Assembly: GCA_016214145.1 (NCBI GenBank) | Contig: JACRPA010000012.1 | Coordinates: forward strand, 1-64,000 | Origin: Rhodocyclales bacterium | GTDB taxonomy: Bacteria > Pseudomonadota > Gammaproteobacteria > Burkholderiales > Rhodocyclaceae | Direction of reading: 5' to 3' | Length of the DNA stretch: 64,000 nucleotides | In this document: one piece after another, positions 1 through 9,951 of the stretch | Layout of the letters: the number at the start of each line of letters is the position of its first letter | Numbering within the stretch: the first letter of the stretch is position 1 | Made by a program: the position numbers and the translations under genes | The notes under the pieces: model-generated | What the model was told of the DNA's origin: nothing | Seen by the model: the letters and a program-made list of their open reading frames with translations, nothing else | Databases searched by the model: none

Positions 1-2205
1 CGCCCAGCTGGTCGTGGAACTGTGGCAGCCCGCGGTGTCGCACTGCAGGGCGGTCGGAATATGCGTGGGCGTCTTGGCCTGGGCGTTTTGCGCCAGGTAG
101 GCGCCGCTGTGGCAGGTGGAGCACTGCCCGGCGAGCCCGGCATGGCTCATCGTCGAGGGCGACCAGGCGGCGTAACCGCTCAGGTGGCAGGTATCGCATT
201 GGGCGAGGGTCGGGATGTGATTGGCCGGCCTGGCGAGCGCATTCGCGAAGACGTAGGCGCCGCTGTGGCAGGTGGCGCAATTGCCGACGGCCGCCGGGCC
301 GGTGGTGGCGGCGTGGCTCATTCTTGCCGGCCTGAAGGCAGAGAAGCCGGCGTGGCAGGCGTCGCACTGGGCGCCGGTCGGGATGTGGTTGGTCGGCTTG
401 CCGAGCGCCGTCACGCTGTTGTGGCAGGTCGAGCAGTTTCCGTTGGCGCTGGCGTCGTGGGCATAGATGGCCGTGGCCCAGGTGACGGTCGAGGTGTGGC
501 AGGTGTCGCATTGCGTCGTGGTGGCGACATGGGTCGGCGGCTTGATCTGCGCGTTCTGGGAAAGGTAGGCGCCGCTGTGGCAGGTCGAGCACTGCCTGGA
601 CAGTCCGGCGTGGTTCATGGTGGCCGGGCTCCAGGCGATGAATCCGTTCACATGGCAGGAGTCGCACTGTGCCGTGGTCGGGATGTGGCTGACGGGTTTG
701 GCGAGCGCGTTGGCAAAGAGATACGAACCGTTGTGGCAGGTGGCGCACTGGCCTGTCGTCCCCATGTGGTTCATCTGCGCCGGCTTGAAGGCGGTGAAAT
801 TGGTGTGGCAGCTGTCGCACTGGGCGCCGGTCGGAATATGCGTGGTGGGCTTGCCGAGCGCGGAAACGCCGTTGTGGCAGCTCGAACAGCGCCCCGCCGC
901 CGGCGGGCTGGCGGTGGCGTGGTTGAAGGTGCCGGTGGCCCAGGTGGTGGTCGAGCTGTGGCAGGAGTCGCACTGCGCCGTCGTCGGGATGTGCGTCGCC
1001 GGCTTGGTCTGGGCGTTCTGCGAGAGGTAGCCGCCGCTATGGCAGGTGGCGCATTTGCCTGCCATGCCGGCATGGTTCATCGTGGCCGGCGACCAGTTGA
1101 TGAATCCGCCCAGGTGGCAGGCGTCGCATTGCGCCGTGGTCGGAATGTGGGTGGCCGGCTTGGCCAGGGCATTGGCGAAGTTGTACGAGCCGTTGTGGCA
1201 CGAGGCGCATTGGCCGGCTGTGCCGACGTGATCCATCCTGGCCGGCTTGAAGGCGGTGAAGTTGCCGTGGCAGGCGTCGCACTGGGCGCTGGTCGGGATG
1301 TGATTGGTCGGCTTGCCCAGGGCGGTGGCGCCGTTGTGGCAGCTCGAGCAGCGTCCCGCCGCCGGCGGGCTGGCGGTGGCGTGATCGAAGAGGGCGGTGG
1401 CCCATGTCGTGGTCGAGGCATGGCAGAAGTCGCACTGTCCCGAGGTCGGGATGTGGGTGGACGGCTTGACCTGGGCGTTCTGGGTGAGGAAGGCGCCGCT
1501 GTGGCAGGTCGAGCAGTTGCCGGCCGCGGCAGGTCCGGCCATGCTGGAATGCATCGTGCCGACGCCGACCGAAATCGGCGCGAAGGCGACGCCGGGTGCA
1601 TGGCATGCGTCGCAGGCGGCCGAGGTCGGAATGTGCGCGGCCGGCTTGCCGGTGGCGCGGACGCCGTTGTGGCAGGTGGCGCAAGTGCCCGGCGCGACCA
1701 GCGCGTGGGAGTAGCCGGCGGGCAGCCAGGAAGCGGTCTTGTGGCAGGTGTCGCAGGGAGCGCTTGTCACCACGTGCGTGGCCGGCTTGCCCTGCGCGGT
1801 GATGCCGTTATGGCAGGTGCTGCAGGAGCCTGGCGCGATGCCTTGGGTTGTCCGGTGCCTGAAATTGGCCGGCGTCCAGCTGGTGGTGAAGTGGCATGAA
1901 TCGCACTGCACCGTGGTCGGAATGTGCGAGGCGGGCTTGCCCGGCGCCAGCCCGCCGGGGCGGTGGCAGGTTGCGCAATCGCGCGGCGTGCCGCGGAAGG
2001 TGCCCTGCACGTGGCAGGACTCGCAGCGCTCGCGGACGTGGGCGCCGTCGAGGATGAATCCGGTGGTGTTGTGATCGAAGGGAGCGATGCCCCCGGCCTG
2101 CGCCAGCGCGGGCGACGGGCCGTATGCGATCGCTGCCAGCACAAAAAAAACGGCTGAGAACAGCTTGAATGCAAGACAGCTGCCGCTGCCTTTCGAACTC
2201 GCCAA
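1..2205 (-). CDS. Giant multihaem c-type cytochrome, 3' end beyond the window
   Basis: The frame is open from a TTG at 2205 to the window edge (735 codons, no stop), so the C terminus is missing. The N terminus reads as a signal peptide: a polar stretch, then LFSAVFFVLAAIAYG and cleavage after PALA. I count 26 CxxCH haem-attachment motifs plus one CX4CH (CDTAGCH near 42), so at least 27 covalent haems are likely. Motifs alternate about every 26 residues, with His residues in recurring THIPT and MNHAG segments as possible distal ligands. It should be periplasmic or outer-surface and move electrons by haem-to-haem hopping. It follows a 24-haem cytochrome and a membrane protein on the same strand, so all three probably form one conduit. 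I cannot name an orthologue; its terminal acceptor or donor is unknown. Confidence 0.9.
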   Translation of the reverse strand, partial: MASSKGSGSCLAFKLFSAVFFVLAAIAYGPSPALAQAGGIAPFDHNTTGFILDGAHVRERCESCHVQGTFRGTPRDCATCHRPGGLAPGKPASHIPTTVQCDSCHFTTSWTPANFRHRTTQGIAPGSCSTCHNGITAQGKPATHVVTSAPCDTCHKTASWLPAGYSHALVAPGTCATCHNGVRATGKPAAHIPTSAACDACHAPGVAFAPISVGVGTMHSSMAGPAAAGNCSTCHSGAFLTQNAQVKPSTHIPTSGQCDFCHASTTTWATALFDHATASPPAAGRCSSCHNGATALGKPTNHIPTSAQCDACHGNFTAFKPARMDHVGTAGQCASCHNGSYNFANALAKPATHIPTTAQCDACHLGGFINWSPATMNHAGMAGKCATCHSGGYLSQNAQTKPATHIPTTAQCDSCHSSTTTWATGTFNHATASPPAAGRCSSCHNGVSALGKPTTHIPTGAQCDSCHTNFTAFKPAQMNHMGTTGQCATCHNGSYLFANALAKPVSHIPTTAQCDSCHVNGFIAWSPATMNHAGLSRQCSTCHSGAYLSQNAQIKPPTHVATTTQCDTCHTSTVTWATAIYAHDASANGNCSTCHNSVTALGKPTNHIPTGAQCDACHAGFSAFRPARMSHAATTGPAAVGNCATCHSGAYVFANALARPANHIPTLAQCDTCHLSGYAAWSPSTMSHAGLAGQCSTCHSGAYLAQNAQAKTPTHIPTALQCDTAGCHSSTTSWA
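43..1434 (-). repeat. 462-bp (154-residue) six-haem superrepeat
   Basis: Within the giant cytochrome the haem motif followed by TTTWAT-like residues recurs with its first Cys codon at 1434, 972, 510 and 42. The spacings are 462, 462 and 468 bp. Each unit carries six haem motifs in the same order, with matching linkers such as KPTNHIPT, FTAFKPARM and GGFINWSP. The gene therefore grew by duplication of a six-haem module. Confidence 0.85.
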
Positions 2206-2217
2206 GTGGCTCTCCTT
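2203..2217 (-). promoter_or_regulatory. Ribosome-binding site and TTG start of the giant cytochrome
   Basis: On the minus strand AAGGAGAG (2217-2210) precedes TTG (2205-2203) by four bases. No ATG or GTG in this frame gives a sensible signal peptide, and the TTG puts MASSKGSG directly in front of the hydrophobic core. This fixes the start of a gene with no ATG. Confidence 0.75.
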
Positions 2218-2413
2218 GACTGCTGCCAGTAGTGCGCTGAGGTGGTTTGCCTTGAGCCAGCAAGCAATTCTTCTTGTTGTAATTTTTTTGTCCCGTTTCG
2301 TCCTCTGAGGGCGTTTCTGTCAGAGGCGACTGCCTGTTTGCGGGATTATATCCCACATTTTACGCATAAAGCAATCCCCTCTGCTGAAGATGGGATTGGG
2401 GGCGTCCTCGGGC

Positions 2414-4258
2414 TTATCTGCGAACTTTCTTCCAGGTGCTGGTCACGTGACAGCGCTCGCACTGGCGGCTGAAGCCGCCCTCGTGAACATCGTCCCGGAT
2501 GTGGCAGCCGACGCAGGAACGGTCCGGCTGGACGGGACCGTCCACGGGTTCCCGGTGGCAGTCGTGGCAATCGACTTTGGCGTGGGCGCCGTCCAGCTTG
2601 AAGCGCGTGGTCGAATGATCGAAATCCCACGTCTTCCAGGTGCCCGTGTAGTGGCAGGACTCGCATTTCGTCCCCAAGCGGCGCTTGTGCTTGTCGTCCT
2701 TTTCATGGCAGCCGCTGCACGTCCTGGGCGCGTCGCGGAAGGCCGGCGTCAGGTGGCATTTCCTGCACTCAACCTTGGCGTGGCTGCCGGTCAGCGGGAA
2801 GCGCGACTTGTTGTGGTCGTAGGGCGCGTCCTGCCAGCGCTGCTCGTTGTGGCAGCTCTCGCACTTGGCGCCGAGTTGCCCCTTGTGCTTGTCGTCCTGT
2901 TTGTGGCAGGCGATGCAGCCTGTTTCCAGCTTGGCCTTGTGGATCGGCCCCTTCGCAGGCAGGTGGCAGGCGTCGCAGCGGGTTTCCTTGTGCTTGCCCT
3001 TCAAGGCGTATTTGGTGTCCTTGTCGTGGTCGAAGATGCTGGTTTTCCAGTCCTTGGCCGTGTGGCAGGTTCCGCACTTCTCGCCGTAGCGCCCCTTGTG
3101 GCCCTTCTCCTTCTCCTGGTCGTCCTTGCGGTGGCAGGCGATGCATTCCATTTCCAGCTTCAGCTTCGCGTTCGGGCCGCTGACGCCGCCCTTGTGGCAG
3201 GCGTCGCACTTGGCGTCCTTGTGCTTGTCGCGCAGCGGGAACTTCGTGTCGTCATGGTCGAAGCTCGGGTTCTTCCAGCCGCGCTCGCTGTGGCAGGTCT
3301 CGCATTTCTCGCCGAGGCCGCCGCGGTGGCCCTTGTCCTGGTCATCCTTCTTGTGGCAGGCGATGCATTTGTCCGGCAACCTGGTCTTCTGGTAGAGGGG
3401 GCCTTTCTCGGGCAGGTGGCAGGCGTTGCACTTCACCTGGCGGTGCTTGCCCTTGAGTGCGTAATGCGTGTCGTGGTCGTGATTGAAGGTGATCTCCTTC
3501 CAGCCCTTGTCGTTGTGGCAGGACTCGCACTTCGTGCCATAGCGGCCCTTGTGGCCCTTTTCGTCGTCGATCTTCCTGTGGCAGCCGTTGCAGGTCAGCG
3601 GCGTCTTTTGATAGGTCAGGTCGGCGTGGCAGTCCTTGCACTTGGCCTCGGCGTGCTTGCCGCCGGCGAGGGAGAACTTGGTTTTTTCATGGTCGAATTT
3701 GGCTTCCTTCCAGCTCCTGTCGTTGTGGCAGGCCTCGCACTTCGTGCCGAGATGGCCCTTGTGGCCCTTTTCCTGGTCGATCTTCCTGTGGCAGTCGTTG
3801 CACAGCTTCGGCGTGTCGCGGAACCTGACTTTCGGCTTGTGGCAGCTCTCGCATTTCGTGCCGAGTTCCCGGTGCGCGCCGGCCAGCTTGAAATCGGTGC
3901 GATCGTGGTCGAATTTCTTCTTGTCGAGGGAAACGATGCCCGCCTTGCGCCCCTTGTGGTCGGTATGGCAGCGGCTGCAGGTGTTGTCATCGAGCCTGCC
4001 GTGCAGCCGGGTTCTGGAGCGGACGTCGGCGCCGATGTCCTTGTGGCAATCCTGGCACAGGCCGGATTGGGCCGCCTTGTCGAAGCGCTTGTGGCATTGG
4101 GCGCAGTCCTGCTCATACTTGGCGTGCCCTTCGATGACTTCGCCGGGCATCAGGACCTTCTCGATCGTCTGGCCCCATGCGCCGGCGGACCCGAGCGCCG
4201 CCAGCACCAGCAGCAGCCGGCGGAGGGGGCTTTCAATACATGTGAACCGCGACGACAT
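2414..4258 (-). CDS. Periplasmic 24-haem c-type cytochrome
   Basis: This 614-residue protein starts with a signal peptide (LRRLLLVLAALGSAGAWGQ) and contains 24 CxxCH motifs spread from about residue 53 to the C terminus. The motifs alternate with Lys-rich linkers of the form KGHKGRYGTKC and with FDHDxTKFxLxGxH segments, whose His residues are plausible distal haem ligands. The protein is strongly basic. Its start overlaps the end of the membrane-protein gene at 4233-5150 by 26 bp, so the two are translationally coupled. The giant cytochrome follows 208 bp downstream. I infer that it takes electrons from, or gives them to, the membrane partner and passes them through the periplasm. The direction of flow cannot be read from sequence. 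Confidence 0.9.
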   Translation of the reverse strand: MSSRFTCIESPLRRLLLVLAALGSAGAWGQTIEKVLMPGEVIEGHAKYEQDCAQCHKRFDKAAQSGLCQDCHKDIGADVRSRTRLHGRLDDNTCSRCHTDHKGRKAGIVSLDKKKFDHDRTDFKLAGAHRELGTKCESCHKPKVRFRDTPKLCNDCHRKIDQEKGHKGHLGTKCEACHNDRSWKEAKFDHEKTKFSLAGGKHAEAKCKDCHADLTYQKTPLTCNGCHRKIDDEKGHKGRYGTKCESCHNDKGWKEITFNHDHDTHYALKGKHRQVKCNACHLPEKGPLYQKTRLPDKCIACHKKDDQDKGHRGGLGEKCETCHSERGWKNPSFDHDDTKFPLRDKHKDAKCDACHKGGVSGPNAKLKLEMECIACHRKDDQEKEKGHKGRYGEKCGTCHTAKDWKTSIFDHDKDTKYALKGKHKETRCDACHLPAKGPIHKAKLETGCIACHKQDDKHKGQLGAKCESCHNEQRWQDAPYDHNKSRFPLTGSHAKVECRKCHLTPAFRDAPRTCSGCHEKDDKHKRRLGTKCESCHYTGTWKTWDFDHSTTRFKLDGAHAKVDCHDCHREPVDGPVQPDRSCVGCHIRDDVHEGGFSRQCERCHVTSTWKKVRR

Positions 4259-5150
4259 GAACGATTCCGCTCAGGACGAGCAGGTAGATGAAGGGAATGT
4301 GGATGACATGCCAAAGTGAAAAAAGCCGCTCCCATACGGCCAGCTGGGAGGTTCGCACGACCGCTTCGAGATAATCGTCGATCAGCGCGCGGGCGAGGCG
4401 GTAATTGATGATGAGTTCGCGGCGCGGCAACCTTGCCTCGCGTCCCATTCGGCTCAGGATTCTCTTGACGTCGCTGCGGATTGCCCTGGACAGCCCCCTG
4501 CCTTTCCAGCGCAGGGAGAGGAAGCGCCACAGGCGCAGCACAACGTTGTCGAGCGGGGCGAAGGCCGCCTCATGGAAGGCCTTCAGCCGCGCCTCGATGT
4601 CGGTTTGCAGGGCGAATACGGTGCCCATCCTGCCCGTAGCCGCATTCATCTCGCTCCTGGCATCGGCCAGTGTCAGATGGCGCCCGTAAAGCCCGCGGTG
4701 TATGTGCCGGTAAAGGAATCGCCCGACGATGCCGCTGCAGGCGACGAGCAGCATGGCGTACAGCGCCACGCGGCCGTTCATCGAGCCGGTCCTGAAAGTG
4801 GAATGGAAAAGGATGAGCAAGGGCCCCCCGATCCCGGCCACCATGTGATACTTGAACCAAAGCTGCATGTTGCCGAGGCGCTCCAGGGCGCGGACCCTCT
4901 TGCGCAGCGGGTATAACAGCAAACTGGACATGAGCAGGCCGCCGGCCAATCCCAGGTTGTAACCCAGGGAAGAACCCGGATCGTAGGCATCTCCGAAAGC
5001 CGCGAGCCAGCCGAGGGCCGCAACCACGCCGATCAGCAGGCCGATGGCAAGGCGCCAGACCCAGCGAAGCGCCTTCTCGGCGCCGGATCGGGCCTCGCCT
5101 TCCATCGAGATGACCGTCATCGGTCCGAGCGTGTTTGCGCTTGCCATCAT
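4233..5150 (-). CDS. Integral-membrane, probably b-haem protein of the cytochrome operon
   Basis: About 305 residues. Four hydrophobic segments lie in the N-terminal half and one at the C terminus, separated by a basic cytoplasmic stretch of roughly 110 residues. Histidines sit where haem b ligands would be expected: YHMVAGIGG and LILFHSTF in one hydrophobic hairpin, and LWHVIHIPF...IVHVVAVH at the C terminus. No CxxCH is present. It is the first gene of the operon and overlaps the 24-haem cytochrome gene. I infer a quinone- or flavoprotein-linked membrane module that exchanges electrons with the periplasmic cytochromes. The frame is open further upstream; I chose the ATG at 5150, with a second ATG at 5147, and neither has a strong ribosome-binding site. 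Family membership is unproven. Confidence 0.6.
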   Translation of the reverse strand: MMASANTLGPMTVISMEGEARSGAEKALRWVWRLAIGLLIGVVAALGWLAAFGDAYDPGSSLGYNLGLAGGLLMSSLLLYPLRKRVRALERLGNMQLWFKYHMVAGIGGPLLILFHSTFRTGSMNGRVALYAMLLVACSGIVGRFLYRHIHRGLYGRHLTLADARSEMNAATGRMGTVFALQTDIEARLKAFHEAAFAPLDNVVLRLWRFLSLRWKGRGLSRAIRSDVKRILSRMGREARLPRRELIINYRLARALIDDYLEAVVRTSQLAVWERLFSLWHVIHIPFIYLLVLSGIVHVVAVHMY

Positions 5151-5338
5151 CAAGGTATGCGGTTGCGATCGGAAAATTTGTATCGTTTCATTCGATCGAA
5201 GACAAGGCTGATCGGGCGCTTGATGCAAAATCGATCAACGAAAAAATCAGTCCGAGGTAAAATATCCCACGAACAGAGGAATGGCAAATTTTTGTTTTTC
5301 GCCACTTCCCTCCATGGCCCATTTTTGGAGTCCGCCCG

Positions 5339-6370
5339 ATGGCTTCGATCAAGTTCAAGCAGACTCTCGCAGATTGGTTTCCGAAGGAGCAGGGAGGGAA
5401 TGCGGCTCTTCCGGTTGCGTTCGTCCTGGTTGCCGTCGAATTGCAGAGGCACTGGCGAGGAAGCGTCAGATGGCTTTTTCTGGCTGTTGTCATTTGGGTT
5501 GCCGCAATCTGGATCGGCACGCTGGCGAAAGGCGCATGGGCGATGCGTCATGCAAACAGCGCACTGGATGCCGTTGTGCTGGTCCTCCTGCTTGGCAGCG
5601 GCTATCTCGCATTTGTCGCAGGGGATCCGGATGGCCCCGACGTGGCGGCGACGCTGTTGTTCTGGGCTCCCCTGGTTTGCGCGTGGTGGGGAGTCGCCTA
5701 TCGCGACAGGATGGTTCGAATTGCCGCCAGCGCGTTCGTGCTCTACGCCAGCCTGTTTTTTCTCGGAATCGCCGGAAACCCTCCGCTCTATGATCATGTG
5801 ATACTCGGTGTCCTGATGATCATCCTCGCCCGCGGGGCCGGCAGCCGGTTGCCCTCCGTGCAGGACAGCCTGTCTTCCGGGAACGTCCCCGATACGGTGC
5901 TGAGGGATACATTGACGGGCGTCGCCAGCCCGACCTATTTCGAAGCCGAACTGGCCCATACGGCTGCCGTCGCGAACAGGTACCGCCAGTCGCCGTTTTC
6001 GCTGATCGTCTATGACATCGAGCACTACTCGCAACATGCTGCCGAGTTCGGGAAGAAGGCAGTGGTCGGCCTGATCAAGGGGGTGGCCTGGAAGATCGCC
6101 GATCGCGTCAGGGTGGCGGATACGGTATGCAGGTGGGAAGACGGGAAAATCGTCGTCCTGCTGCCCAACACGGGCATTGCCGAAAGCAGGCAGCTGGCGA
6201 GCGATATCGGTCGCGCATGCAGGCAAATCAGCTTGCCGAACGGACAGCCTCTATCCATGCGCATGGGCGTGTCCGAGCACCGATTCGGCGACGATCCGAT
6301 GATGACGTTCGGCATTGCCAACGAGTCTTTGTCGGTCATTCCCCGCGGCCAGGACGCCGGGCAGGGTTGA
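5339..6370 (+). CDS. Membrane protein with degenerate GGDEF domain
   Basis: About 343 residues. The first ~170 hold several hydrophobic segments, then DTLTGVASPTYFEAEL marks the usual beginning of a GGDEF domain. The domain core is kept (SLIVYDIEHYSQ, then a beta-strand IVVLLPNTG), but the active-site loop reads CRWEDGKIVVL where RYGGDEFVVL is expected. The key Gly and Glu residues are therefore missing, and cyclic-di-GMP synthesis is unlikely. It could sense a signal or bind a nucleotide without catalysis. GGAG lies nine bases before the ATG. It is transcribed away from the cytochrome operon, with 188 bp between them that must hold both promoters, and is followed by the iron-sulphur flavoprotein gene. 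Confidence 0.75.
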   Translation: MASIKFKQTLADWFPKEQGGNAALPVAFVLVAVELQRHWRGSVRWLFLAVVIWVAAIWIGTLAKGAWAMRHANSALDAVVLVLLLGSGYLAFVAGDPDGPDVAATLLFWAPLVCAWWGVAYRDRMVRIAASAFVLYASLFFLGIAGNPPLYDHVILGVLMIILARGAGSRLPSVQDSLSSGNVPDTVLRDTLTGVASPTYFEAELAHTAAVANRYRQSPFSLIVYDIEHYSQHAAEFGKKAVVGLIKGVAWKIADRVRVADTVCRWEDGKIVVLLPNTGIAESRQLASDIGRACRQISLPNGQPLSMRMGVSEHRFGDDPMMTFGIANESLSVIPRGQDAGQG

Positions 6371-6434
6371 GTCCGCTGTTATCCAGGGGCGATTCATGAC
6401 AAGGCCCGGTTGAACGGAAAGAGACGCCGATCCC

Positions 6435-7730
6435 ATGTCCGAGCTGATCTACTATCTTGTGCCGCTATTGCTGGTTTTCGTTTCGATCCGGCTGTATGTT
6501 CGCGCAGGCCGAAAGCGCTCCGGCCTGCACTCGGCCATCCTGCAGGAGGCCGTCGAGGCAGGCCTGACCGAGCCGCCCTCGCTGCATCCGGTGGTCGACC
6601 TGTCGGTCTGCATGGGATCGGGCGCCTGCGTGCGCGCCTGTCCGGAAAAGGCGCTCGGCATCATCGACGGCAAGGGCGTGCTCATCAATCCGACGCACTG
6701 CATCGGCCACGGCGCCTGCGCGCCGGCCTGTCCGGTCGGGGCCATCAGGCTGGTGTTCGGCACCGCCAAGAGAGGCGTGGATATCCCCCAGGTGACCCCC
6801 GACTTCGAGACCAACGTGCCCGGAATCTTCATCGCCGGGGAACTCGGCGGCATGGGCTTGATTCGCAACGCGGTGCGTCAGGGCACCCGGGCCATCGAGG
6901 CGATCGCGAAGCGGCCGCGCGCCAAGGCGGATTTCGATGTGGTCATCGTCGGCGCAGGCCCGGCCGGCATATCCGCTTCGCTTGCGGCGAAGGAGGCGGG
7001 GTTGCGCTACGTCACCATCGAGCAGGAAGACTCGCTCGGCGGAACCACCTATCACTATCCTCGCAACAAGCTGGTGATGACGGCGCCGATGAAGTTGCCG
7101 CTGGTGGGCGAGATCAGGCTGCGGGAAGTCAGCAAGGAGCAGCTGATGGATATCTGGCTCGGCGTGCTTGAAAAGGCGCGGCCGAACATCCGGTTCGGCG
7201 AGCGCATGGAAAGCATCGTCCCGGAAACCGGCGCGTTCGTGGTGAAGTCCAGTCGGGGCGCCTACCGGACGTCCAGCGTTCTGCTCGCCATCGGCCGCCG
7301 CGGCACGCCGCGCAAGCTTGGCGCAAGTGGCGAGGAGCAGTCCAAGGTGGTGTACCGTCTGATCGAGGCGGATCAGTACCGCAGGCGCAAGGTGCTGGTG
7401 GTCGGCGGTGGCGACAGCGCGCTTGAAGCGGCGCTCGATGTCAGCGAGGAGCCCGGAACGACCGTGACGCTGAGCTATCGAGGCAGGGCGTTCGACCGGG
7501 TCAAGCCCAAGAACAGGGCCCGGCTGGAGGAAGCGATTGCAAGTTGCCGCATTCAGCAGATCCTGGAATCGACGGTCAGGGAAATCGGCCCCGACAAGGT
7601 CATCCTGGCCAAGGGCGACGGGACTGTGGAACTGCCCAACGACGCAGTCATCGTTTGCGCCGGAGGCGAGTTGCCGACGCCCATGCTGAAGAAAATCGGC
7701 ATCCAGGTCGAGACCCACTACGGGACATGA
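6435..7730 (+). CDS. Membrane-anchored ferredoxin/thioredoxin-reductase-like flavoprotein
   Basis: 431 residues in three parts. A hydrophobic anchor spans about residues 3-20. A bicluster ferredoxin-like domain (about 50-105) has CMGSGACVRACP and CIGHGACAPACP. A two-nucleotide-fold oxidoreductase follows, with an FAD motif GAGPAGISA (about 176-184) and an NAD(P)H motif GGGDSALEA. No CxxC disulphide is seen in the reductase part, so it is probably an electron-transfer flavoprotein rather than a thioredoxin reductase. Both ferredoxin motifs lack the second Cys of CxxCxxCxxxCP (Ser62 and His92 instead), leaving six Cys rather than eight. Its position beside the multihaem operon suggests it links NAD(P)H or ferredoxin to the membrane module. 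The gene ends 9 bp from a convergent gene. Confidence 0.8.
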   Translation: MSELIYYLVPLLLVFVSIRLYVRAGRKRSGLHSAILQEAVEAGLTEPPSLHPVVDLSVCMGSGACVRACPEKALGIIDGKGVLINPTHCIGHGACAPACPVGAIRLVFGTAKRGVDIPQVTPDFETNVPGIFIAGELGGMGLIRNAVRQGTRAIEAIAKRPRAKADFDVVIVGAGPAGISASLAAKEAGLRYVTIEQEDSLGGTTYHYPRNKLVMTAPMKLPLVGEIRLREVSKEQLMDIWLGVLEKARPNIRFGERMESIVPETGAFVVKSSRGAYRTSSVLLAIGRRGTPRKLGASGEEQSKVVYRLIEADQYRRRKVLVVGGGDSALEAALDVSEEPGTTVTLSYRGRAFDRVKPKNRARLEEAIASCRIQQILESTVREIGPDKVILAKGDGTVELPNDAVIVCAGGELPTPMLKKIGIQVETHYGT

Positions 7731-8538: not shown

Positions 8539-9951
8539 TCAGCGCCTCTCGTGCCTTTCGGCCCTTTCCGGCTTCTCCGGCTTTTCCGGCTTCTCCGGCT
8601 TTTCGGGTTTCTCCGGTTTCTCCGGTTTCTCCGGCTTTTCGGGTTTTTCGGGCTTTTCCGGTTTCTCGGGTTTCTCGGTCCGCTCGGGCTTTTCCGTTTT
8701 TTCGGCCTTCTCGGCGCGTTCGATCTTTTCCGCCGTTTCCTGCCGCTCGTAGCTTTCTTCGCGCCCGCCTTCCTCGCGCCGTTCGATGCGCTCGGCAGCA
8801 GCCGGCTGAGCGTCGCGCGAGGCTTCCCCCGCCGGCTGGCGCCCGCGATCAAGGCGCTCTCCGAACGGCCGCCCCGACAACTCCAACGTAATGCGTTCGG
8901 CGACGATGCGCCTGTCCGGCAGCACCTCCGCGCTGACGCGCACGCGGTCGCCGTCGCGATAGCCGCGATTCCCGCCGCCCTCGATTCGCGTCCTGTCGGT
9001 GATGATCACCATCCTGCCCGAGATCATTGCCGTGCCGGGTTTGCGCAATTCGAGATAGCCCTGGATTTCCAGCCTTCGCGCTCGATCGAGCAGGCGCTGC
9101 ACCGGATTGCGCACCACCTCGCGGGCCGTCAGGGCGGCGCCGTTCCAGTTGCCCGTGATGCGCACTTCGGTCCCGGTCGCCGGGAGGCCCGCCGCAGGCG
9201 GCAATTCGACCGGCACGCCATTGACCGCGATGCCGCCGCCCGGTCGCGGCGCGACGACTCCGGTGACGCTGGCGGGGGCCGCCGGGACGAGGGCCAGGTG
9301 CGTTGCCACCACCGTGCCATCGACGCGGTGCAGACCGCTCACCTTGACGACGTCGCCCGGCTTGAGGCTGCCTGCGGACCTGCCGGGACCGCCGCCCGGC
9401 ACGGATAACGGCATTCCCGAGGCCAGTTCGACGCTTTGTCCCATCACGGCGATCCTGCCGCGTCCGCGGGAGATGTCCGTGATCGGGCCGCTCAGTGCGT
9501 ACACGATGCTGATGCGGTGCGCCCTGACATCGCTGCCGCTGCCGGCGGCATCGACGGCAACCACCTGGCCGATGGCGAGCGCGGTCGGCGCAGCCGGCTG
9601 GCCGCCGGCTTCTACCGGTGTGCCGTTGTCGTAATGCACCTCGATGCCGTTCACGCAGATGCTGCCGAACCCGGTGACGATGCCGACGATGCCTGTTCCG
9701 CCGATGCCTTCCTGCGCCAGGCTGCCGGTGCCGCCAATGCCGTCGTCCCGTCCGGGCGCGCCGGTTCCGCCCGTGCCGTCGCTGCGTGCCGGAGCGCCCG
9801 TGCCGCCGGTGCCATCGCGCGCCGGGGTTCCGGTGCCGCCGATGCCGTCACCCGAGCAGGCCCTGCCTGCGTGGGCAGGCAGGGCGCCGAGCAGGACGGC
9901 GCACAACAGGAAGGCGGGGCAAAGGCGCGGCAGCGGGCGCAGTCCGGTCAT
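8539..9951 (-). CDS. Secreted DUF5666 protein with GGTG and EKP repeats
   Basis: 470 residues: signal peptide, then a low-complexity stretch with five GIGGTG/GTGGTG units, then tandem small beta-domains of the DUF5666 type (VTGFGSICVNGIEVHYD; VTGVVAPRPGGGIAVNGVPVEL; IQGYLELRKPGTAMISGRMVI). An Arg/Glu-rich linker follows, ending in about a dozen EKP tripeptides and RAERHERR. The repeated beta modules suggest a periplasmic or surface binding role, but function is unknown. The start codon overlaps the stop of the DUF6502 gene by 4 bp, so the pair is translationally coupled. Confidence 0.8.
   Translation of the reverse strand: MTGLRPLPRLCPAFLLCAVLLGALPAHAGRACSGDGIGGTGTPARDGTGGTGAPARSDGTGGTGAPGRDDGIGGTGSLAQEGIGGTGIVGIVTGFGSICVNGIEVHYDNGTPVEAGGQPAAPTALAIGQVVAVDAAGSGSDVRAHRISIVYALSGPITDISRGRGRIAVMGQSVELASGMPLSVPGGGPGRSAGSLKPGDVVKVSGLHRVDGTVVATHLALVPAAPASVTGVVAPRPGGGIAVNGVPVELPPAAGLPATGTEVRITGNWNGAALTAREVVRNPVQRLLDRARRLEIQGYLELRKPGTAMISGRMVIITDRTRIEGGGNRGYRDGDRVRVSAEVLPDRRIVAERITLELSGRPFGERLDRGRQPAGEASRDAQPAAAERIERREEGGREESYERQETAEKIERAEKAEKTEKPERTEKPEKPEKPEKPEKPEKPEKPEKPEKPEKPEKPEKPERAERHERR
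8566..8676 (-). repeat. 9-bp tandem repeats encoding EKP tripeptides
   Basis: About twelve near-identical 9-bp units (YTCSGGYTT on the plus strand) encode Glu-Lys-Pro at the C terminus of the DUF5666 protein. Unit length is a multiple of three, so copy number can change without a frameshift. Boundaries are approximate. Confidence 0.85.

Follow-up and report, generated by a model that had tools for sequence, protein, structure and literature searches.

To which electron-transfer system do the giant multihaem cytochromes (MHCs) encoded at the very end of contig C11 (JACRPA010000012.1) of a Rhodocyclales bacterium belong, and with which carrier of the cell could they exchange electrons? The stretch in question, referred to below as the window, covers the initial 64 kb of this contig (64,000 nucleotides; the genome, GCA_016214145.1, amounts to 3.42 Mb in 12 contigs). 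Its beginning encodes, on the minus strand, a membrane protein with putative b haems, a cytochrome with 24 CxxCH motifs and a giant cytochrome, and on the plus strand a GGDEF-family protein and an oxidoreductase with FAD-type and Fe-S motifs (FAD/Fe-S protein). All five open reading frames (ORFs) claimed in an earlier reading of this DNA (the original prediction) were found, and the numbers of haem motifs together with matches to the cytochrome c7/c3 families of Pfam (down to 9.1e-46) mean that the pattern is not due to chance. The anatomy proposed there, a trans-envelope conduit of more than 50 haems accompanied by a co-occurring flavin/Fe-S module, has stood, whereas the statements that no porin was present and that the layout matched no system that could be named have to be given up. 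Judged by its sequence, the cluster is a PCC3, a porin-cytochrome complex proposed by He et al. in 2017 (PMC5566968), and agrees with the description of the latter in its sequence features, except that five transmembrane (TM) helices could not be confirmed for the inner-membrane protein (IMP). PCC3 has been under discussion as a possible iron oxidase since 2017 and its function was called untested in 2025 (PMC12442390); the papers cited here are represented by those parts of their text that were available to us. We propose that the FAD/Fe-S protein is a fifth component of PCC3.

PCC3 has been published as a set of four genes, for a porin, an extracellular giant MHC, a periplasmic MHC of about 21-27 haems and an IMP of about 300 amino acids (aa) with the motif WX3HX13H twice and one SGXXG motif; counterparts of all four are present here, and the FAD/Fe-S protein and a CcmI/CycH-like protein are added to them in this work. 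The predicted periplasmic cytochrome has 24 haem sites in 614 aa, in line with the first count. The IMP (305 aa from the ATG picked in this analysis) carries W98-H102-H116, S139-G140-G143 and W280-H284-H298, and these motifs, including the two HX13H pairs formed by His 102/116 and 284/298, are invariant in 25 aligned sequences (window included). No Pfam family, PF01794 included, matched the IMP at E <= 0.001, and a PDB profile search with it gave nothing relevant.

The predicted extracellular cytochrome is, as in PCC3, repetitive and holds very many haem sites. Its ORF runs off the window start, which is the contig end (G000:C11:1) lying within this repetitive gene, and the visible 735 aa hold 26 CxxCH motifs and one C-x4-CH, so that the figure of at least 27 was correct. 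The gene contains a 462-bp tandem repeat, and more of it was found at the start of contig C2 (G000:C2:1-2448, in the stretch labelled L070). Contig C2 repeats the 127 bases of the C11 end exactly at its bases 1690-1816, and this has the look of an overlap left by the assembler. Near this identity (L070:1690-1930) the reading frame on C2 shifts, probably by mis-assembly of the repeat, and the true length of the gene therefore cannot be stated; the two C2 frames contain 21 and 7 CxxCH motifs, some of which possibly duplicate the C11 end. Identity with a known reductase was ruled out on NCBIfam cut-offs. A giant cytochrome frame with as many as 106 CxxCH motifs (counted stop to stop) was seen in the metagenome-assembled genome (MAG) CTSoil_122 (L045:11980-20346); PMC5566968 quotes 85 haem motifs, and no record is claimed, given the gene neighbourhoods with more than 100 motifs mentioned in PMC11475568.

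The porin gene had been hidden by the contig break. Directly after the end of the giant gene on C2, and hence beside the extracellular MHC gene as in PCC3, lies an ORF of 786 aa (L070:2472-4832, from an ATG chosen in this analysis). Relatives have homologous ORFs in the corresponding position (734 bits for that of L035). The fold predicted for the L035 homologue (mean pLDDT 75, pTM 0.54) comprises a low-confidence N-terminal beta domain, helices resembling tetratricopeptide repeats (TPR) at 207-295 and, between 318 and 785, 22 strands that are each 7 or more residues long. The top Foldseek matches of this model were the FimD usher, MOMP, chitoporin and Occ porins (TM-score about 0.3 on the query), no MtrB-type entry was among the 50 matches listed, and a PDB profile search with the porin returned TPR repeats only. 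On the strength of the model the ORF is predicted to encode an outer-membrane beta-barrel porin. The CcmI/CycH-like cytochrome maturation gene follows directly after it on C2; such a gene was found in 16 of the 25 porin-bearing loci (own genome counted), at two of the nine loci without a match there was no space for it, and in L064 it is located before the IMP gene instead. Its product is a partner newly added to PCC3, perhaps a dedicated helper for the haem-rich cytochromes.

Other systems resemble the cluster in part. MtrCAB/MtoAB also consist of a porin and cytochromes spanning the outer membrane, but no member of the decahaem MtrA/DmsE family is encoded in the cluster, and membership was ruled out because the TIGR03508 matches, at 72.9 and 29.4 bits, stay far below the 192.2 bits required. 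PCC4 (PMC5566968) shares with the cluster a porin, MHCs, an HX13H-type IMP and a further redox gene; it differs in having no extracellular MHC according to the available text, in an IMP of a different family and in the domain order of its redox protein. Loci L076 and L077, in genomes G056 and G016, encode 10-haem cytochromes and a Pyr_redox protein without the permutation, to which cNMP-binding and Fe-S domains are fused, and are perhaps relatives of PCC4.

The FAD/Fe-S protein had been described as a membrane-anchored flavoprotein with ferredoxin motifs, and that is how it is built: a hydrophobic segment (residues 4-22) is followed by a pair of ferredoxin-type motifs and then by a pyridine-nucleotide-disulphide oxidoreductase domain (Pfam). 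From the basic residues behind the hydrophobic segment the catalytic domain is predicted to be cytoplasmic. In 22 sequences the FAD and NAD(P) glycine motifs are invariant, as are six Cys of the Fe-S motifs, with the second ligand position occupied in motif 1 by Ser (19/22) or Cys (3/22) and in motif 2 always by His (22/22), which suggests [3Fe-4S] clusters or Ser/His ligands. There is no CxxC pair, the remaining cysteines being two single ones. In a PDB profile search residues 164-428 aligned to 3-270 of Bdr/YpdA and residues 120-135 to Bdr 278-293 (the latter alone not significant), as if the C-terminal segment closing the FAD site had moved to the N-terminal side. When residues 108-163 were placed behind 164-431, alignments became longer and scores gained a little, one going from 81.9 bits to 85.0 and the other from 73.7 bits to 81.4; Pyr_redox_3 stops at 281/305 in the window protein and reaches 305/305 in the related G056 and G016 proteins. 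The AlphaFold model (pLDDT 76.6, pTM 0.56, weak at 108-122) combines a long N-terminal helix with a TrxR/Bdr-like domain (TM-scores 0.27-0.46 on the query). Because of these alignments, rearranged-query scores, domain ends and model, the flavin domain is likely to be circularly permuted relative to bacillithiol and thioredoxin reductases. The protein shares the FAD/NAD(P)H two-Rossmann fold with YpdA/Bdr bacillithiol disulfide reductase and TrxR-type FNR, but differs from them by its probable permutation, TM anchor and two Fe-S motifs; membership in YpdA/Bdr was ruled out by a TIGR04018 score of 152 bits against a cut-off of 339.9 and by a domain order that looks permuted.

The distribution of this protein suggests that it belongs with PCC3. 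Both it and the IMP were sought in one draw of 399 genomes from the order, which spans 159 genera and includes 346 well complete genomes. The same 21, own genome included, hold a PCC3-type IMP (E <= 4.2e-86) and a close FAD/Fe-S homologue (threshold E <= 1e-60, weakest 2.3e-185). The other 378 counted as having neither (genomes without a match were listed only in part for either search), and 19 of them gave weak IMP-like matches (E 3.5e-20 to 2.4e-12). The two genes stand side by side in divergent orientation in 18 of the 20 non-self positives, where 121-904 bp separate the matches; they lie 8.4 kb apart in G298 and on different contigs in G356. Both profiles were made from PCC3-linked copies, the rows of the IMP profile coming partly from the searched genomes G057 and G058, and the association p-values ignore phylogeny and serve as a guide only. 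In a set of 60 genomes (own and 59 relatives), the four other genomes with strong homologues of the 24-haem protein also have a strong FAD/Fe-S match (E <= 1.1e-157), the next best match being 1.8e-31. Among contigs of named genomes, 28 loci have an IMP scoring 100 bits or more, and 22 of these also carry the FAD/Fe-S gene; five of the six genomes behind the remaining loci have it outside the locus stretch, and the search of the MAG that contains L046 gave no match. The flavin/Fe-S module thus keeps company with the cytochromes in other genomes, and the outcome that would have spoken against the original prediction did not occur.

The FAD/Fe-S protein behaves as an added partner that is absent from the PCC3 descriptions available to us. 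The main text of PMC5566968, taken apart from its supplements, contains none of the terms FAD, flavo-, pyridine, ferredoxin, GGDEF or diguanylate, and the partner was not found in the accessible portions of PMC10734462, PMC12442390, PMC8788666, PMC12016527 and PMC13386937. Titles and abstracts on NAD(P)H or flavoproteins, or on Nitrospira, with porin-cytochromes, a sample mostly of open literature, included none that describes the gene, and no mention of the neighbouring locus tags of strain ES-1 was found in papers; the partner may nevertheless already be listed somewhere. A partner that follows PCC3 across genomes offers a handle on the carrier that feeds or drains the haem wire and on the direction of flow, and it may link this wire to the cell's own redox fuel.

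Features of the cluster in the window (plain coordinates) and on contig C2 (L070)
Feature	Position	Strand	Evidence
Giant multihaem cytochrome, predicted extracellular (PCC3 MHCe), N-terminal 735 aa	1..2205	-	26 CxxCH + 1 CX4CH, tandem repeat, C2 matches
24-haem cytochrome, predicted periplasmic (PCC3 MHCp)	2414..4258	-	24 CxxCH in 614 aa
PCC3 IMP, predicted two b haems	4233..5150	-	WX3HX13H twice + SGXXG
Membrane protein with degenerate GGDEF domain	5339..6370	+	PF00990 8.4e-16
TM-anchored FAD/NAD(P)-type oxidoreductase, two Fe-S motifs	6435..7730	+	Pfam, alignment, AlphaFold model, co-occurrence
CcmI/CycH-like cytochrome maturation protein	L070:4833-6083		PF23892, PF23914

How, then, could the parts work together? 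We consider it probable that the PCC3-type conduit carries electrons across the whole Gram-negative envelope, with the FAD/Fe-S protein exchanging them with NAD(P)H on the cytoplasmic side. The giant cytochrome would be the surface terminal, contacted through the porin, the 24-haem cytochrome would bridge the periplasm as a haem wire, and the IMP would pass electrons across the membrane over two b haems; the cytoplasmic FAD/Fe-S protein would trade electrons between these haems and NAD(P)H, and quinone exchange at the IMP may take place as well. With NAD(P)H as the input, the system would be a split analogue of NADPH oxidase/ferric reductase (FRD, PF01794) with the haem wire as its outlet. The likeness to these enzymes consists in two HX13H pairs for two stacked b haems (PMC5566968) and in a module of the NAD(P)H-FAD type; the differences are that the IMP has no PF01794 match and that the flavin module is a separate gene product of another fold with Fe-S motifs.

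Several points weigh against this reading. The published model places quinones and not NAD(P)H at the IMP (PMC5566968); use of NAD(P)H is read from fold and motifs only; and biochemistry of PCC3 was not found in the literature consulted. A simple hydropathy scan of the IMP gave three hydrophobic regions against the five TM helices described. The FAD/Fe-S profile, built from copies near PCC3 cytochromes, favours the finding of such copies, and co-occurrence is no proof of physical coupling, as the pattern would look no different if the protein served in maturation or regulation. RuBisCO was found (PF00016, E <= 1e-60) in 18 of 21 PCC3 genomes versus 152 of 378 others, a comparison that takes no account of phylogeny and in which two of the 18 matches are weak (about 1e-65) and possibly RuBisCO-like; and iron-oxidising cells of Sideroxydans CL21 showed raised expression of the IMP gene in PCC3 copy 2 and lowered expression of copy 1 (PMC12442390).

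The evidence on direction points both ways. A route linked to NAD(P)H would thermodynamically favour outward flow, because inward transfer to NAD(P)+ would, we infer, be uphill and against the membrane potential. The RuBisCO enrichment favours inward flow, that is electron uptake over disposal, and the behaviour of CL21 copy 2 likewise fits uptake better. Both observations agree with the published model of He et al. (PMC5566968), in which electrons from Fe(II) or minerals move inward via porin and haem wire to the IMP and reduce quinones, the FAD/Fe-S protein then being peripheral. This account is a credible though less probable one. It draws further support from the 26 complete and 11 partial PCC3 sets in genomes of iron-oxidising Gallionellaceae (PMC10734462), but it leaves unexplained why each of the 21 genomes with a PCC3 IMP also encodes a FAD/Fe-S protein of the NAD(P) type. 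Moreover, both PCC3 clusters of strain ES-1 are down-regulated on Fe(II) (PMC8788666), with which a pure role in Fe(II) oxidation there sits badly, and in the proteome of ES-1 on magnetite no PCC3 protein ranks above about the 63rd percentile and one extracellular cytochrome was undetected (PMC12016527). The down-regulation and the modest protein ranks in ES-1 count towards outward flow.

A more radical form of the NAD(P)H-linked conduit, in which PCC3 works without quinones as an NAD(P)H:extracellular-acceptor oxidoreductase, split as an NADPH-oxidase-like enzyme and with an outlet of roughly 75 or more haems in this genome, is possible but doubtful. The b-haem IMP and the circularly permuted flavoprotein with Ser/His Fe-S motifs would then form the NADPH-oxidase-like pair, which would either send electrons out to balance the redox state or take them in with the help of some energy coupling.

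Outside the conduit, the FAD/Fe-S protein could be a maturation or repair reductase that provides the haem-rich cytochromes with electrons for haem attachment or thiol reduction. The CcmI/CycH-like gene in the cluster at most porin loci and the closeness of the flavin domain to the disulfide reductases Bdr and TrxR would suit such a role; haem attachment to cytochromes is periplasmic, however, while the catalytic side of the FAD/Fe-S protein is predicted to be cytoplasmic, and a CxxC pair is lacking, so that we regard this role as unlikely. It is very improbable that the FAD/Fe-S protein pairs with the degenerate GGDEF protein in regulation or redox sensing to control the cytochrome operon: their genes are consecutive on the plus strand and divergent from the cytochromes in the window, but the GGDEF gene is missing from 14 of 24 named-contig loci with FAD/Fe-S, and the latter has a conserved oxidoreductase architecture with two nucleotide sites.

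The GGDEF protein is an accessory of a subset of loci only. The motif GG[DE]EF is absent from all 13 copies examined (the window's, rightly called degenerate at the outset, and 12 others; the L046 copy is cut by the contig end), and with this active-site motif missing a canonical diguanylate cyclase was ruled out. Matches of 60 bits or more to the protein occur at 11 of the 36 related loci and also in G022, so that it can no longer be counted as a general part of the system.

The cluster itself is distributed unevenly. In the 60-genome set the 24-haem protein was matched in 10 genomes at E <= 0.001, strongly in the own genome, G021, G022, G057 and G058 and weakly in G016, G023, G036, G038 and G056. 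None of the 15 same-genus genomes gave a match, and the cluster is therefore patchy within the genus. The 36 loci with 24-haem relatives in contigs of named genomes include Azonexaceae and other betaproteobacterial MAGs, Methylophilaceae, Gallionella, Amphritea, Hyphomicrobium, Nitrospira/Nitrospirota and the chloroflexotal records L065 and L067-L069. Ten of them are titled Nitrospira, Nitrospirota or Nitrospirae, and in five of these ten (L048, L051, L053, L058 and L060) porin, both cytochromes and IMP stand together; PMC5566968 was the only paper found that pairs 'Nitrospira' with 'PCC3'. The locus L052 of Novimethylophilus kurashikiensis La2-4, a culturable carrier, holds genes for the FAD/Fe-S protein, IMP, both cytochromes and porin. 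At the chloroflexotal loci porin and full IMP were not found, nor was a close FAD/Fe-S match in the two chloroflexotal genomes searched (those of L065 and L068), and by present data these loci are not PCC3. The related cytochromes in the Anaerolineales- and Herpetosiphon-titled records L068 (7832-13618, one frame with 81 CxxCH), L065 and L067 may represent a different system or mis-binned contigs.

Beyond the cluster, the minus strand of the window encodes a DUF5666 protein with a long Pro-Glu-Lys repeat at its tail (8539-9951). On contig C2, near the PCC3 porin, the minus strand encodes a [NiFe]-hydrogenase large-subunit-like protein (PF00374, L070:6170-7654) and a b561-type cytochrome (PF01292, Ni_hydr_CYTB, L070:11981-12724), and with these genes so close to PCC3 the host may use hydrogen too.

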